Below are positions 30,487 to 35,800 of a DNA stretch of 64,000 nucleotides, piece after piece. This DNA comes from Pedobacter sp. FW305-3-2-15-E-R2A2 (lineage in GTDB: Bacteria; Bacteroidota; Bacteroidia; Sphingobacteriales; Sphingobacteriaceae), in assembly GCF_038446955.1 (NCBI RefSeq), contig NZ_CP151803.1:6882001-6946000 (forward strand). Direction: 5' to 3'. Below the pieces are notes generated by a model, which did no database searches, was not told the origin of the DNA, and worked only from the letters and a program-made list of their open reading frames with translations. Each line of letters starts with the position of its first letter. Within the stretch, counting starts at the first letter, position 1. Position numbers and translations under genes: made by a program.

Positions 30487-31170
30487 CTACGACTTCTTAA
30501 CCGTTAGTTTAGAAGGAATTAAGGATTTTACTTCCTTAATTTTATTTTTAAATTGAGTTGTATTTGATGATTTGGCCAATAATTCAGCTCTGTTAATATC
30601 TCTTAAAGCAAGGGCGTATTCCTTTTTCTTGATTTTTACCTGAGCGATCCCCAGAACAGATTCAATATAAGCGTTATTGTTATTTACCTGCTTCGCAAGA
30701 ATGCCTTGCTGCGTATAAAACCATAAGGACTGTGTCAGTTTATTTGCGGCAAAATAAATCCTTCCCAATTGATAGTAAGATTCCATTTGCCCCGTTTTAC
30801 TTCCGATACGGGAATAGTTCTTTAATGCAACATTCAGGATCACCTGTTCTGCTTCTCCGTAATGGCTCATCAGAAAATGAACATTTCCTAACCTTAACAA
30901 TGCTTCCCCATAGCGGACAAAAAGTTTAGAGCTGTTATATTCAAATGCTGCTTTACCAAATAAAGTAAGGGCATCGTTCAAATCCCCTCTTTTTTCATTT
31001 TTTACGGCCTCAGCGAAATAGGTATTTCCATCTGCTTCTTCCAGACTGGAAGTTACAATATTTATCGCTCCGCCGGTCACCGGAGGCTCTTGCGGTAGAA
31101 AAGTATTGGTTTGTGTCATCGCCCTCCCTGAAAATAACAGGCAAATGATTACTAAACAAATTTTGTTCAT
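30487..31170 (-). CDS. Secreted TPR-repeat protein
   Basis: 227 residues from ATG 31170. Sec signal peptide (MNKICLVIICLLFSGRAMTQ), then a helical body with about four TPR-like pairs (GDLNDALTLFGKAAFEY, HYGEAEQVILNVALKNY, YYQLGRIYFAANKLTQSLWFY, KKEYALALRDINRAELLAK). No catalytic motif. It starts 20 bases after the isoaspartyl peptidase stop, so it may be the third gene of the cyanophycin-breakdown operon, although a promoter-like box overlaps that stop. Likely a protein-interaction module in the periplasm. Confidence 0.82.
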   Translation of the reverse strand: MNKICLVIICLLFSGRAMTQTNTFLPQEPPVTGGAINIVTSSLEEADGNTYFAEAVKNEKRGDLNDALTLFGKAAFEYNSSKLFVRYGEALLRLGNVHFLMSHYGEAEQVILNVALKNYSRIGSKTGQMESYYQLGRIYFAANKLTQSLWFYTQQGILAKQVNNNNAYIESVLGIAQVKIKKKEYALALRDINRAELLAKSSNTTQFKNKIKEVKSLIPSKLTVKKS

Positions 31171-31185
31171 CCGATAAAGATATAA

Positions 31186-31193
31186 CAAATTTA
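31186..31193 (-). promoter_or_regulatory. -7-like element TAAATTTG overlapping upstream stop codon
   Basis: TAnnTTTG match on the minus strand containing the TAA stop of the peptidase gene and lying 15 bases before the TPR gene ATG. It may be an internal promoter; partly constrained by coding, so uncertain. Confidence 0.35.
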
Positions 31194-32033
31194 GTTAAAC
31201 ACCTGTAAACTACCGTCAAAAGAAGCCCAGACCATATATGGATGGGAGTCAGTATGATAAACCTCCCCTTTAGAAGAGATTCCGATTACCCCTGCAAAAC
31301 CATCAAAAGTTTTTAATTCCGCGAAGGATTTATCACTTGCATCTTTTAATGTAAATCCATCTGTAACACGGGTTACAATCTTTGCAGCAAGCGCCGTACT
31401 TACAATATCTTCACCAACTCCGGTACAGGAAATACCTGCATGTTCGTTTGCAAAATTTCCTGCAACTGTAGCGGAATCGCTCACGCGACAAGGAATTTCA
31501 AATCCTTTTCCTCCGGTGGAAGTTGCTGCAGCCAGGTTTCCATCCGCATCCAGCGCAACACAGCCAACAGTGCCTATCCTGCTGGACTGAGCCAATTTCT
31601 GTTCGTATTCCTGTTGTCTCTGTGGAATAATCGGGTCGAAAAAGTTAAAGTTACGGTCACGCGCAAACTTTAAAGCTCCCTCTCCACTAAGGACTTTATC
31701 GTCATAGCTCAGCAGCTGCCCGGCAACCTGAATTGGGTTTCTGACATTTTCAATATTGATTACGCCGCTAAATTTCTGACTTTTACCATCCATCAATGAA
31801 GCACTTAGCCGTATCTTCCCATCACTTTGAATCTGAGATCCCAGTCCGGCGTTAAATAATTCATTATCTTCCAGCAGACTAACTGCATAAATAACAGTCT
31901 CTAATGCAGTATGTATCTGTAAATAGGCATGAGATTGGCTCACGATTGCCGATAAGGCATCTTGTTTTGCCTTTTTAGTCTCCTGATTGGTTCCGGACTC
32001 ACTAAAAAATCCACCGTGAATGATTATTTTCAT
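31191..32033 (-). CDS. Isoaspartyl peptidase / L-asparaginase (Ntn hydrolase)
   Basis: 280 residues. Plant-type asparaginase family: N-terminal IIIHGG, NAGLGSQIQSDG, and autocleavage/nucleophile Thr155 in GTVGCVALDADGNLAAATSTGG. The proenzyme splits before Thr to form alpha and beta chains. These enzymes hydrolyse beta-aspartyl dipeptides. It begins 4 bases after the cyanophycinase stop, so the natural substrate is probably beta-Asp-Arg released from cyanophycin, giving Asp and Arg. No signal peptide: cytoplasmic. Somewhat shorter than the 300-plus of many homologues. Confidence 0.92.
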   Translation of the reverse strand: MKIIIHGGFFSESGTNQETKKAKQDALSAIVSQSHAYLQIHTALETVIYAVSLLEDNELFNAGLGSQIQSDGKIRLSASLMDGKSQKFSGVINIENVRNPIQVAGQLLSYDDKVLSGEGALKFARDRNFNFFDPIIPQRQQEYEQKLAQSSRIGTVGCVALDADGNLAAATSTGGKGFEIPCRVSDSATVAGNFANEHAGISCTGVGEDIVSTALAAKIVTRVTDGFTLKDASDKSFAELKTFDGFAGVIGISSKGEVYHTDSHPYMVWASFDGSLQVFN

Positions 32034-32037
32034 GGGT

Positions 32038-32913
32038 TTAATCTATTGGAACAACCTTTGGATGATGAATGGTTAGTTTATGTGCCGTAAGGTCATAAAT
32101 ATCGCCATCACACATCACATGAACGGTCATATTGTTAATAGAAACGGGTTGCCCCATATCTACATCAGTAAGGTTCGTATCGGCCATATTTCTGCCATCC
32201 ACCAGGATCACCATTCCGGAACCTATGGCTTCCATAATGTTACCGTTCGAAATGTACAACCCTGTATCTTCGCCAAGCCCAATCCCAAGAATTCCAGGAT
32301 TACTTGCCGTAGCATATAAAAGCCGTCCTATCCTACCGCGTTGTACAAAATGGGTATCTACAATCACGCCATCAATAAAGCCCAGCCCACCTGTAATTTT
32401 AACTTCCCCTTTGAGCAAAGCGTCCTTACTGCTTCCCTGATAGATCATATTTTTAGAACTGGCAGCAGCCCCGGCAGAAGTCCCGGCAATCACAACCGGT
32501 TCATCCTGGTATTTATCCAAAAGAATCTGATGAATAGCGGTACCACCAAATATGGACGACAAACGCAGTTGATCACCACCGGTAAAAACGATGACATCTG
32601 CCGCCTTTACACGATCGCTGTTTTCTTCAGAATTCGCCTGCTCACGGCTATTGATATTTAAAACTCCTACATCATGGACATCCAGCTGGGCGAATGCTTT
32701 GATATACTCTTCTCCAACCCTTTCCGGAACCAGGGAGGCTGTAGTAATGATCTCGAAACGAGATGCCGTTCCCTTTAATGATTCCGTCGTAATTTTCTTT
32801 AAAATACCTCTTTCAAAAAAGTTCATATTCTGGGGCAATCCGAAAGTTGTCTCTGTGAAACTTCCTGTATTAATTGCACCACCTATAATTATTAGTTTAC
32901 CCTTTGGAGTCAT
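32038..32913 (-). CDS. cphB: Cyanophycinase
   Basis: 291 residues, peptidase S51 family. FTGGDQLRLSS (about 110-120), nucleophile Ser146 in GTSAGAA, and DTHFVQRGRIGRL with His188, all as in cyanobacterial CphB. No signal peptide, so it is the intracellular type rather than the secreted CphE type. Cuts cyanophycin to beta-Asp-Arg dipeptides. It heads the minus-strand operon with the isoaspartyl peptidase and is divergent from the cyanophycin synthetase gene, 271 bases away. Confidence 0.93.
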   Translation of the reverse strand: MTPKGKLIIIGGAINTGSFTETTFGLPQNMNFFERGILKKITTESLKGTASRFEIITTASLVPERVGEEYIKAFAQLDVHDVGVLNINSREQANSEENSDRVKAADVIVFTGGDQLRLSSIFGGTAIHQILLDKYQDEPVVIAGTSAGAAASSKNMIYQGSSKDALLKGEVKITGGLGFIDGVIVDTHFVQRGRIGRLLYATASNPGILGIGLGEDTGLYISNGNIMEAIGSGMVILVDGRNMADTNLTDVDMGQPVSINNMTVHVMCDGDIYDLTAHKLTIHHPKVVPID

Positions 32914-32940
32914 CTTAAATCTTTACATTTCCTATAATTC

Positions 32941-32969
32941 CAAATATATATGCATTAGCCTAATATCAA
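32941..32969 (-). promoter_or_regulatory. Promoter (-7 TATATTTG, -33 TTG) of cphB operon
   Basis: On the minus strand TTG at 32967-32969, 18-base spacer, then TATATTTG at 32941-32948. The start of cphB is 27 bases downstream. For cphA on the other strand I find no perfect TAnnTTTG in the 271-bp gap. Confidence 0.6.
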
Positions 32970-33184
32970 GGAATTTTTTATCAATATTATACCCTTATTA
33001 ACAATTTTCTGCAGAATTATCCCCCCTCAATTCCTTGCTTAAAATATATTCCTAACATTTAATGGGCCAATAGTGGAACTTTCGAAAAATATTTATACTT
33101 TAATCTCTCCATTGACCTTATCAAATTAGCTACTAACAAGTTCCCGTAATATGGTCACTACCAACACAAAATAATCAATCTAGA

Positions 33185-35800
33185 ATGAAAATATTAGGCA
33201 TACAGGTGCTACGCGGACCAAATATATGGTCTATCAACAGAAAAAAGTTAATTCAAATGCGCCTTGACCTGGAGGAGATGGAGCAAAATCCAACCAATGT
33301 AATTGATGGATTTGCAGAAAGGATTGAAAAGTTAATACCAAGTCTATATACGCATCGTTGTTCAAAAGGTGCACCCGGAGGATTTCTGATGAGGATACAG
33401 GAAGGCACCTGGATGGGACATGTAATCGAACATATCGCATTAGAAATTCAAACCCTTGCAGGAATGGATACCGGCTTTGGCAGGACACGGCAAACGAAAA
33501 CTGACGGCATTTATAATGTCGTATTCAGCTATCTGGAAGAAAAAGCAGGACTTTATGCCGCCGAAGCTTCGGTAAGGATTGCAGAAGCACTCATCAATGG
33601 AACGGATTATGATCTGGAACATGACATTCACCGCATGCGCGAGCTAAGAGAACTGGAGCGCCTTGGTCCAAGTACGGGCTCTATCGTTAATGAAGCCATT
33701 TCGAGACACATTCCATGGATCCGGTTGAACAAAAGTTCACTGGTACAACTGGGATATGGAAAGAATCAAGTCCGCTTCCGTGCGACGATGACTGAGAAAA
33801 CAAATTCAATCGCAGTGGACATTGCCTGCAATAAGGATGAAACAAAGAGACTTTTGCAGGACTCTGCCATCCCCGTTGCAAAAGGCGTAACCATATCCGA
33901 TCCTAATGACCTTTCCGACGCCATTAAAAAAGTAGGGTATCCACTGGTATTTAAGCCACTTGATGGAAATCATGGAAAAGGAGCGACCATCAATGTAAAA
34001 ACGGATGAAGCAGCTAAAGAAGCCTTTGAATATGCACAAAACTATTCCCGAAAAGTCATCATTGAACGCTTCATTAACGGCTATGACTTTAGAATCCTGG
34101 TAATTGATCATAAAATGGTTGCTGCAGCGCTTCGTGTTCCTGCACATGTGACCGGAAATGGCCAACTGACGATTCAGCAACTCATTGACAAAGAAAATAC
34201 AGATCCCAGACGAGGCTATGGCCATGAGAACGTATTAACGGAAATCACCGTAGACCGCGACACACTGGATCTTCTGGCAAAAAAAGAATATACACTGGAA
34301 ACCATCCCTTCGCAAGGGGAGATTGTTTACCTGAAATCTACGGCAAATTTAAGTACCGGAGGGACCTCTATTGATGTAACTGATCTTGTCCATCCACAAA
34401 ATGTCTTTATCAGTGAGCGGATATCCAGAGTCATCGGACTAGACATCTGTGGTATCGATATCATGGCAGAAAATCTGACGCAGCCCTTAACCGAAAATGG
34501 AGGAGTCGTACTCGAAGTAAACGCAGCTCCCGGTTTTAGAATGCACCTGGCCCCAAGTGAAGGCCTTCCAAGAAACGTTGCTGCTCCGGTAATTGACATG
34601 CTTTACCCTCCTGGAAAATCTGCGATAATTCCAATTATCGCCGTAACAGGAACCAACGGAAAAACGACCACAACAAGGCTAATCGCCCATATTGTTAAAA
34701 GTAACGGAACCAGGGTTGGTTTTACCACATCAGATGGGATCTATGTACAGAATACCATGTTGATGAAAGGGGATACTACCGGTCCTGTGAGTTCAGAATT
34801 TATACTAAGAGATCCAACGGTAGAATTTGCCGTTCTGGAAACCGCAAGAGGCGGAATTCTGAGGGCCGGACTCGGCTTTAACAGATGCGATATAGGAGTT
34901 ATTACTAATATTCAGGCCGACCATCTAGGCATCTCCGACATCCATACGCTTGACGATCTGGCCAGGGTAAAAGGAGTAGTTATTGGGGCGGTGAAAAGAA
35001 GTGGCTGGGGCGTTTTAAATGCAGATAATAAATACTGTATTAAAATTGCAGCCAATGCCGATTGTAATGTTGCCTACTTCAGTATGGATGAAAACAATCC
35101 TGTAATTGTGGAGCATTGTAAAAAAGGAGGAATAGCCGCCATTTATGAAAACGGCTATATCACGATCAAAAAAGGTGACTGGAAAATCAGGGTAGAGAAA
35201 GTAACTCATGTTCCATTGACCTTTGGCGGCAGTGTTGATTTTATGATTCAGAATGTACTGGCGGCAACACTAGCTACTTTCCTTTGGGGCTATAAGATTG
35301 AAGATATCCGCATGTCTTTAGAAACATTCATTCCTTCCGCAGCACAAACACCAGGCAGGATGAATACGTTCAAATTTAAGGAATTTCAAATCATGGTCGA
35401 CTTTGCACATAATCCTGATGGGTATAGTGGCATTAAGTCGTATTTAAAGACTATTGAGGCAACAGAACATGTTGGTGTCATTTCTGCTACGGGCGACAGA
35501 AGGGATTCAGACATCAGAGAAACTGCAAAAATTGCCGCTCAAATGTTCAATAAGATTATTATCTGTCAGGAGAAATACCTTCGTGGCCGAAATCAACAAG
35601 AGCTAATTGACTTACAGATTGAAGCTATTCGTGAGATTAATCCGGATATGGATATTATCATTAACAATAGCGGAGATGATTGCCTGAAATATATTATTGC
35701 GACTGCTCGTTCAGGATCATTTATTACCATTTTAAGTGATACTATAGACCAAGCGATCATTAAGGTCTCCGATTATCTTGATAAAGAATTCGGAATGTAA
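33185..35800 (+). CDS. cphA: Cyanophycin synthetase
   Basis: 871 residues, full length for CphA1. N-terminal domain (1 to about 160; LRGPNIWSINRKKLIQMRLD, FGRTRQTKTDGIYNVVF), ATP-grasp domain (about 200-470; GNHGKGATINV, LEVNAAPGFRMH) and a Mur-ligase-like domain with P-loop GTNGKTTTTRL (about 489-499) and FAHNPDGY. It adds Asp to the backbone and Arg to its side chain, using ATP, to make the nitrogen-storage polymer cyanophycin. The HxxEH site (His79, Glu82, His83), known in some CphA1 enzymes to generate primers, is intact. Divergent from cphB. Confidence 0.95.
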   Translation: MKILGIQVLRGPNIWSINRKKLIQMRLDLEEMEQNPTNVIDGFAERIEKLIPSLYTHRCSKGAPGGFLMRIQEGTWMGHVIEHIALEIQTLAGMDTGFGRTRQTKTDGIYNVVFSYLEEKAGLYAAEASVRIAEALINGTDYDLEHDIHRMRELRELERLGPSTGSIVNEAISRHIPWIRLNKSSLVQLGYGKNQVRFRATMTEKTNSIAVDIACNKDETKRLLQDSAIPVAKGVTISDPNDLSDAIKKVGYPLVFKPLDGNHGKGATINVKTDEAAKEAFEYAQNYSRKVIIERFINGYDFRILVIDHKMVAAALRVPAHVTGNGQLTIQQLIDKENTDPRRGYGHENVLTEITVDRDTLDLLAKKEYTLETIPSQGEIVYLKSTANLSTGGTSIDVTDLVHPQNVFISERISRVIGLDICGIDIMAENLTQPLTENGGVVLEVNAAPGFRMHLAPSEGLPRNVAAPVIDMLYPPGKSAIIPIIAVTGTNGKTTTTRLIAHIVKSNGTRVGFTTSDGIYVQNTMLMKGDTTGPVSSEFILRDPTVEFAVLETARGGILRAGLGFNRCDIGVITNIQADHLGISDIHTLDDLARVKGVVIGAVKRSGWGVLNADNKYCIKIAANADCNVAYFSMDENNPVIVEHCKKGGIAAIYENGYITIKKGDWKIRVEKVTHVPLTFGGSVDFMIQNVLAATLATFLWGYKIEDIRMSLETFIPSAAQTPGRMNTFKFKEFQIMVDFAHNPDGYSGIKSYLKTIEATEHVGVISATGDRRDSDIRETAKIAAQMFNKIIICQEKYLRGRNQQELIDLQIEAIREINPDMDIIINNSGDDCLKYIIATARSGSFITILSDTIDQAIIKVSDYLDKEFGM

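Follow-up and report, generated by a model that had tools for sequence, protein, structure and literature searches.

A candidate locus for making and recycling cyanophycin in Pedobacter, with an isoaspartyl peptidase from a separate branch of PF01112

Which enzyme completes the breakdown of cyanophycin in the Bacteroidota? The question is raised by a locus in a 64,000-nucleotide stretch, here called the window, of contig NZ_CP151803.1 (positions 6,882,001 to 6,946,000) of Pedobacter sp. FW305-3-2-15-E-R2A2, a soil-type bacterium whose genome assembly is a single contig of 7.59 Mb. Cyanophycin stores nitrogen and is of industrial interest. Three intact frames in the window are assigned to its metabolism: cphA on the plus strand and, divergent from it, cphB and a PF01112 peptidase gene on the minus strand. 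In the survey of Sharon and Schmeing (2023, PMC10206079), all 86 Bacteroidota genomes with CphA1 have a cyanophycinase, IaaA and/or IadA were found in 22.1% of these genomes, the isoaspartyl dipeptidases of Firmicutes and Bacteroidota are termed undiscovered, and distant IaaA homologues are foreseen.

We consider it probable that the window holds an intracellular cyanophycin make-and-recycle locus, in which the PF01112 peptidase, which we call S-type, performs the last step. CphA would join Asp and Arg with ATP on primers that it makes itself, CphB would cut the polymer to beta-Asp-Arg, and the S-type peptidase, autocleaved before Thr155, would split this dipeptide into Asp and Arg. The cphB and peptidase genes would form one operon with a housekeeping-type promoter, with cphA facing the opposite way under a different one.

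Synthetase, cyanophycinase and the region between them

The first-pass annotation of this DNA had proposed a complete pathway, in order, from the motifs GTNGKTTTT, GTSAGAA and GTVGCVAL. We found these in the CphA, CphB and IaaA-like proteins, respectively, and profile scores matched all three families far above chance. The 271-bp gap that it had placed between the synthesis and breakdown genes was measured at that length, while 4 bp separate cphB from the peptidase gene (Table 1).

CphA scored 1242.1 bits against TIGR02068 (cut-off 850), spanning profile positions 1-859 of 862, and 974.6 bits against PDB 7lg5; 428 of 809 aligned residues are identical in Synechocystis SuCphA1. We then compared it with the residues published for SuCphA1 and TeCphA1 (lists from PMC9262961 and PMC9427784), and 20 of 21 are retained. 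The N domain keeps 9 of 9 positions, including the Cx19HxxEH primer-making site (C59, H79, E82, H83 and five neighbours), the G domain keeps all 8 Asp- and ATP-binding positions, and the M domain keeps 3 of 4 ATP/Mg positions, with Ser in place of T522. Since the metallopeptidase-like site of the N domain is intact, the protein should make its own primers and should be a primer-independent CphA1. The loss of catalytic residues that the first-pass annotation had named as grounds for rejecting the pathway is thus absent from CphA, as it is from the peptidase, where 7 of 7 are kept.

For CphB this check comprised the family score and the GTSAG motif, and both agreed with the assignment. The protein reached 220.2 bits against TIGR02069 (cut-off 126.6) and 185.2 bits against PDB 7uqv, and its GTSAG aligns with that of solved cyanophycinases. 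The motif, whose Ser is presumably the nucleophile, is retained in the window protein and in all 154 related CphB open reading frames (ORFs), some organisms being counted twice. By eye, no signal peptide was apparent.

Table 1. Features of the locus, in window positions
Feature	Position	Strand	Evidence
cphA, cyanophycin synthetase CphA1 type (N, ATP-grasp, Mur-ligase domains), 871 aa	33185..35800	+	TIGR02068, PDB 7lg5, residue alignment
cphB, cyanophycinase (peptidase family S51), 291 aa	32038..32913	-	TIGR02069, PDB 7uqv, GTSAG
S-type isoaspartyl peptidase (PF01112, Ntn-hydrolase), 280 aa, predicted beta-Asp-Arg dipeptidase	31191..32033	-	PF01112, residues, clade, fold
TPR protein gene, N terminus signal-peptide-like (by eye)	30487..31188	-	TTG start; next ATG at 31173
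Divergent intergenic region, 271 bp	32914..33184	.	cphA/cphB gap
TATATTTG, Bacteroidota-type -7 box, 27 nt before cphB start	32941..32948	-	TTG at 32967-32969

The gap had also been proposed to act as a shared control region for making versus breaking the polymer. The distribution of promoter boxes did not bear out such a symmetric switch. TAnnTTTG, which we take to be the Bacteroidota -7 box, lies 10-80 nt upstream of cphB in 55 of 80 regions (mononucleotide shuffles: mean 3.6, highest 10) and upstream of cphA in 0 of 80. When 171 regions were thinned by likeness to 123 diverse ones, the box occurred 10-120 nt upstream on the cphB side in 74 against 13.1 expected, and on the cphA side in 7 against 9.1; counted anywhere in the gap, the figures were 76 against 28.3 expected in the cphB direction and 10 against 19.8 in the cphA direction. 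A sigma-54-like site was found upstream of cphA in 0 of the 123 regions, and the dyads there are weak. From this asymmetry, breakdown looks suited to housekeeping transcription, with synthesis geared to another signal; the cphB promoter looks housekeeping-type, and cphA looks to be transcribed from a different, unrecognised promoter.

A separate branch of PF01112 peptidases

The window peptidase scored 254.2 bits against PF01112 (cut-off 27). Against PRK10226, the equivalog of E. coli-type beta-aspartyl peptidase, it reached 131 bits, far below the cut-off of 567, and so it is not an ordinary IaaA. The closest named relatives are from Pedobacter steynii (94%) and P. caeni (92%). Like E. coli IaaA/EcAIII and R. 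halodurans IaaA, the S-type protein is a PF01112 N-terminal nucleophile (Ntn) hydrolase with the same nucleophile and Asp-binding residues: Thr179, Thr197, Arg207, Asp210, Ser211, Thr230 and Gly231 (E. coli numbering; list from PMC10206079) are kept in the window protein and in 75 of 75 S-type sequences. Autocleavage is predicted before Thr155. The window protein shares 37% identity with the E. coli enzyme over 280 positions and is 41 residues shorter; 17 of the missing residues belong to the linker that precedes the cleavage site, and 12 to the C terminus.

To place it within the family we collected loci centred on CphA genes or on PF01112 matches, took from them the PF01112 proteins no shorter than 250 aa and removed near-copies. 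The set held 75 S-type proteins (~280 aa), 36 rows of the long type (the E. coli protein appearing twice) and one glycosylasparaginase-type protein. In the tree, all S-type sequences fall on one side of a single branch (support 100, length 7.7) and the long type on another; the tree was built by a quick method with a midpoint root and is flagged for long branches and for its one glycosylasparaginase-type row, so the point at which the S-type clade joins is unsettled. Residues that are invariant or nearly so in S-type and absent, or almost so, from the long type are Lys, Gly, Phe and Glu at E. coli positions 200-203, Ser 209, Ala 212, Thr 213, Asp 235 and Arg 81; Lys200 occurs in 75 of 75 S-type and 0 of 36 long rows. 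From E. coli IaaA itself, S-type differs by its separate clade and by K, F, E, S, A, T and D at 200, 202, 203, 209, 212, 213 and 235. Invariant positions near the active site are, in the protein's own numbering, K176, F178, E179 and D209. S-type is therefore a separate, divergent branch of PF01112 with its own invariant rim residues.

The predicted structure matched type III L-asparaginases in Foldseek, with E values of 2.7e-18 to the human and 5.7e-17 to the E. coli enzyme. The AlphaFold model has a mean predicted local distance difference test score (pLDDT) of 72.6 and scores below 50 in the active-site loops, and it therefore serves to confirm the fold, with pocket specificity not read from it.

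CphZ is the name of a cyanophycin dipeptide hydrolase. It belongs to a different family from S-type, being annotated as an M14 metallopeptidase or aspartoacylase, and is reported for alpha- and gamma-Proteobacteria (PMC10206079). Among the matches listed in a search of full-text literature (titles and abstract openings, from a corpus without most subscription journals or supplements), none linked the S-type clade to cyanophycin. Proteins with Lys200 have been modelled before: PMC10204187 treats orthologues from Pedobacter, Mucilaginibacter, Myroides, Microcystis and one member of the Chloroflexota, describes position 200 as the gate to the active site and docks Asn there; of the five docked poses, that of the Pedobacter protein alone is marked as unstable. 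The main text of that article makes no use of the word cyanophycin. Given the distribution of Lys200, we infer that its Pedobacter protein is S-type. A P. mendelii protein is listed as an IadA query in the methods of PMC10206079, in the same list as an R. halodurans protein elsewhere called IaaA. The presence of the latter in an IadA list suggests that the query lists may be swapped, and in P. mendelii we found an S-type gene beside cphB and cphA.

Linkage across the Bacteroidota and rival readings

We next examined 395 genomes of the phylum. CphA exceeded the TIGR02068 cut-off in 46, leaving 349 others; 51 genomes had a CphA match at E <= 1e-100, and the 5 below the model cut-off were placed among the 349. 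Neighbourhood counts leave out glycosylasparaginase-type PF01112 rows and cyanophycinase rows below cut-off. Cyanophycinase was over cut-off in 46 of 46 CphA-positive genomes, and CphA and CphB lay within 5 kb of each other in 40. An S-type gene was present in 23 of 46 CphA-positive genomes as opposed to 3 of 349 others, whereas long IaaA (E <= 1e-90) was present in 27 of 46 and in 146 of 349. In all 23 CphA-positive genomes with S-type, this gene is co-directional with CphB and at most 5 kb away, and in 22 it is also within 5 kb of CphA; any long IaaA is present in just 5 of these 23. In 11 other genomes CphA has a long IaaA no more than 5 kb away, which is convergent with CphB where mapped. 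No genome has both types near CphA, and 33 of 46 have one or the other there. The arrangement of the locus is kept across several families.

The same linkage was seen closer to the window. Among the best 80 of 568 named relatives, nearly all Sphingobacteriaceae by title, the S-type locus includes CphB in 80 and CphA in 79, the exception being a 3.6-kb contig. CphA is present in 52 of 59 sampled genomes of the same genus (the window's own excluded), and S-type adjoins CphA in 50 of 51 loci of the genus (within L066-L128), again with a 3.6-kb contig as the exception.

Counted anywhere in the genome, an S-type or long IaaA gene is found in 45 of 46 CphA-positive genomes, one (G356) having neither type. 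These 45, and the 33 with such a gene near CphA, contrast with the 22.1% for IaaA/IadA in PMC10206079, a gap that may come from the thresholds and search settings used there or from genome sampling. The same article describes CphA1-cyanophycinase-IaaA clusters in which, as in the window, the three steps are encoded together. Cyanophycin synthase, cyanophycinase and isoaspartyl aminopeptidase genes have been named in Dyadobacter linearis, also of the Bacteroidota (PMC11573002), and CphA of Flavobacterium psychrophilum is co-expressed with proteases (PMC9723704). With cyanophycin genes of the phylum in print in these three articles, the pathway in Bacteroidota is known and not new. What our comparison suggests is that in many Bacteroidota the dipeptidase would be PF01112 itself, often its divergent S branch. 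In the lineages that carry S-type it is most likely this enzyme that does the last step; in other lineages the ordinary long IaaA may do it.

Several points weigh against assigning the last step to S-type. In eight of the 46 genomes, neither an S-type nor a long IaaA gene lies up to 5 kb from CphA or from a CphB that passes its cut-off. A second sample covered other families of the class with 17 CphA-positive genomes (one overlap with the first sample excluded; 7 kb on each side, less at contig ends), and there S-type lay near CphA in 1, long IaaA in 6 (one a contig-edge fragment) and neither in 10, so that S-type marks certain lineages. Of those ten, three include CphB, and in two CphA sits at a contig edge. 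In several other lineages the genes around CphA so far point to no last-step enzyme. Where no IaaA-type gene lay near CphA, ten of the more numerous neighbouring genes were selected and compared with Pfam: three gave no match, and the matches of the other seven include no obvious dipeptidase. The counts are also not independent, because the S-type sequences form a single clade that has mostly been inherited along with cphAB, and because the genomes share descent. Type III asparaginases are widespread in Bacteroidota in any case, occurring in 83% of Flavobacteriaceae species (PMC9500103), so mere presence proves little. Since an IaaA and an IadA from cph clusters were each characterised as promiscuous (PMC10206079), linkage to cph does not prove a dedicated enzyme. 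The genome of the window itself also encodes a long IaaA and a glycosylasparaginase-type paralogue. E. coli IaaA with the M200K change retains Asn hydrolysis (PMC10204187), and the Lys200 mark by itself therefore does not abolish this activity. As for the promoter, a TTG 17-23 nt before TAnnTTTG was found on the cphB side in just 9 of 80 regions and on the cphA side in 0 of 80, indicating that the -33 element is not well kept; the box statistics use mononucleotide shuffles, and the regions are related to one another.

These points have to be set beside the alternatives. S-type could be a general isoaspartyl peptidase/L-asparaginase acting on damaged protein and asparagine, its position inherited and another enzyme cleaving most of the beta-Asp-Arg. 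The PF01112 membership, the promiscuity of the assayed cluster IaaA (PMC10206079), the treatment of Lys200 orthologues, one of them from Pedobacter, as class 2 L-asparaginases (PMC10204187), the long IaaA of this genome and the many CphA-positive genomes without S-type are all in keeping with this. We regard it as rather unlikely nonetheless, given that S-type hardly occurs outside CphA-positive genomes (23 of 46 against 3 of 349) while long IaaA is spread widely (27 of 46 against 146 of 349), and that few S-type genomes have a long IaaA at all. The copy in this genome has a signal-peptide-like N terminus and SusD/SusC neighbours and is therefore probably not cytoplasmic. Improbable, in our view, is a variant polymer, for instance with Lys or another side chain, or a function mainly as an Arg/Asp buffer instead of a nitrogen store. 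Substrate choice is unreadable from sequence, and the S-type-specific K176, F178, E179 and D209 lie near the active site; against it, the Asp and ATP residues of the G domain and 3 of 4 ATP/Mg residues of the M domain are kept in CphA, and CphB is well over the cyanophycinase cut-off. That the cph genes are decayed or silent and the polymer is not made is very hard to reconcile with intact frames and residues, an arrangement kept across several families and a conserved promoter box before cphB.

Our preferred reading, that S-type performs the last step of an intracellular cycle, has a narrower form, in which it would be a dedicated dipeptidase whose rim (Lys176, Phe178, Glu179, Ser185, Asp209) is specific for beta-Asp-Arg, in contrast to the promiscuous IaaA assayed from another cluster, S-type and the long convergent IaaA having been recruited separately to cphBA. 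We put this form forward tentatively, as falling somewhat short of an even chance; the specificity is a hypothesis that the linkage and the clade-specific residues allow.

Related loci and what the finding may mean

A second locus of the same genome (L162; G000:C1:6331240-6339043) contains genes for FecR, SusC, SusD, a long IaaA and an S51 cyanophycinase, and the N termini of both the IaaA and the cyanophycinase look signal-peptide-like by eye. It resembles a scavenging locus for external cyanophycin, and the organism may therefore both store and scavenge the polymer. Cyanophycin utilisation loci (Ben Hania 2017, cited in PMC10206079) likewise combine a cyanophycinase, an isoaspartyl dipeptidase and a transporter; the window locus differs from them in that it includes CphA, and none of its examined genes encodes a transporter.

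S-type genes also occur in three genomes that lack a CphA match (L256, L257 and L258). A DcuC-type carrier gene lies at most 1.2 kb from each of them, and in two of the three an S51 gene lies within ~5.2 kb of S-type. Scavenging loci would be expected to look like this. The S51 domain of L256 belongs to a 632-aa ORF that extends to the edge of its stretch, with an M14 peptidase and an enolase-superfamily enzyme nearby. In genome G257 (L165, L032) S-type and CphB are together and CphA is on a different contig, which indicates that the breakdown pair can stand as a unit.

Other arrangements were seen as well. Two genomes, G142 (L029/L048) and G068 (L038/L043), have two full CphA genes each, only one of which adjoins CphB and S-type. 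In five loci from five families (L064, L065, L078, L114 and L129) CphA stands without CphB or an IaaA-type gene in the 7 kb fetched on each side. In four other families (L050, L051, L052 and L057) a more distant CphA, at most 774 bits to that of the window, is followed by a second CphA-like ORF of 561-636 aa, with no IaaA-type gene near. We considered CphA2-like recycling by these second ORFs (G096, G340, G242 and G231) as the alternative route in lineages where no peptidase is linked, and rejected it: the three tested (G340, G242 and G231) match the CphA model in the Mur-ligase part only, and a Pfam scan of one of the second ORFs found no ATP-grasp domain, so they are not read as CphA2. In family f18, four CphA-like proteins (L059-L062, from G229, G181, G284 and G129) score 549-628 bits, below the cut-off, with the N-terminal part of the model unmatched; they are possibly synthetases without the usual N domain. 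A candidate co-variation of CphB with peptidase type was also set aside: Thr follows the D of DxHF in 153 of 153 ORFs from loci with S-type and CphA, yet also in 7 of 15 from loci with long IaaA and CphA.

Downstream of the peptidase gene and co-directional with it lies the TPR protein gene, a fourth gene inside the span, starting at 30487, that the first-pass annotation had assigned to the pathway. Its product is not a known cyanophycin gene product and is probably exported. Homologues above 100 bits occur in 49 of 120 scanned loci, all apparently of the same genus.

For the last-step gap that has been stated in print for the Bacteroidota, S-type and long IaaA are candidates, and if S-type is indeed dedicated to the dipeptide, the two together would close much of that gap. 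The S-type peptidase is worth an assay because it would be a direct, though partial, answer to it, and its locus is a possible source of a beta-Asp-Arg-specific enzyme. Making and breaking cyanophycin may be switched by different kinds of promoter. Finally, the presence of CphA in 52 of 59 genomes of this genus suggests that many ordinary Bacteroidota may make the polymer.

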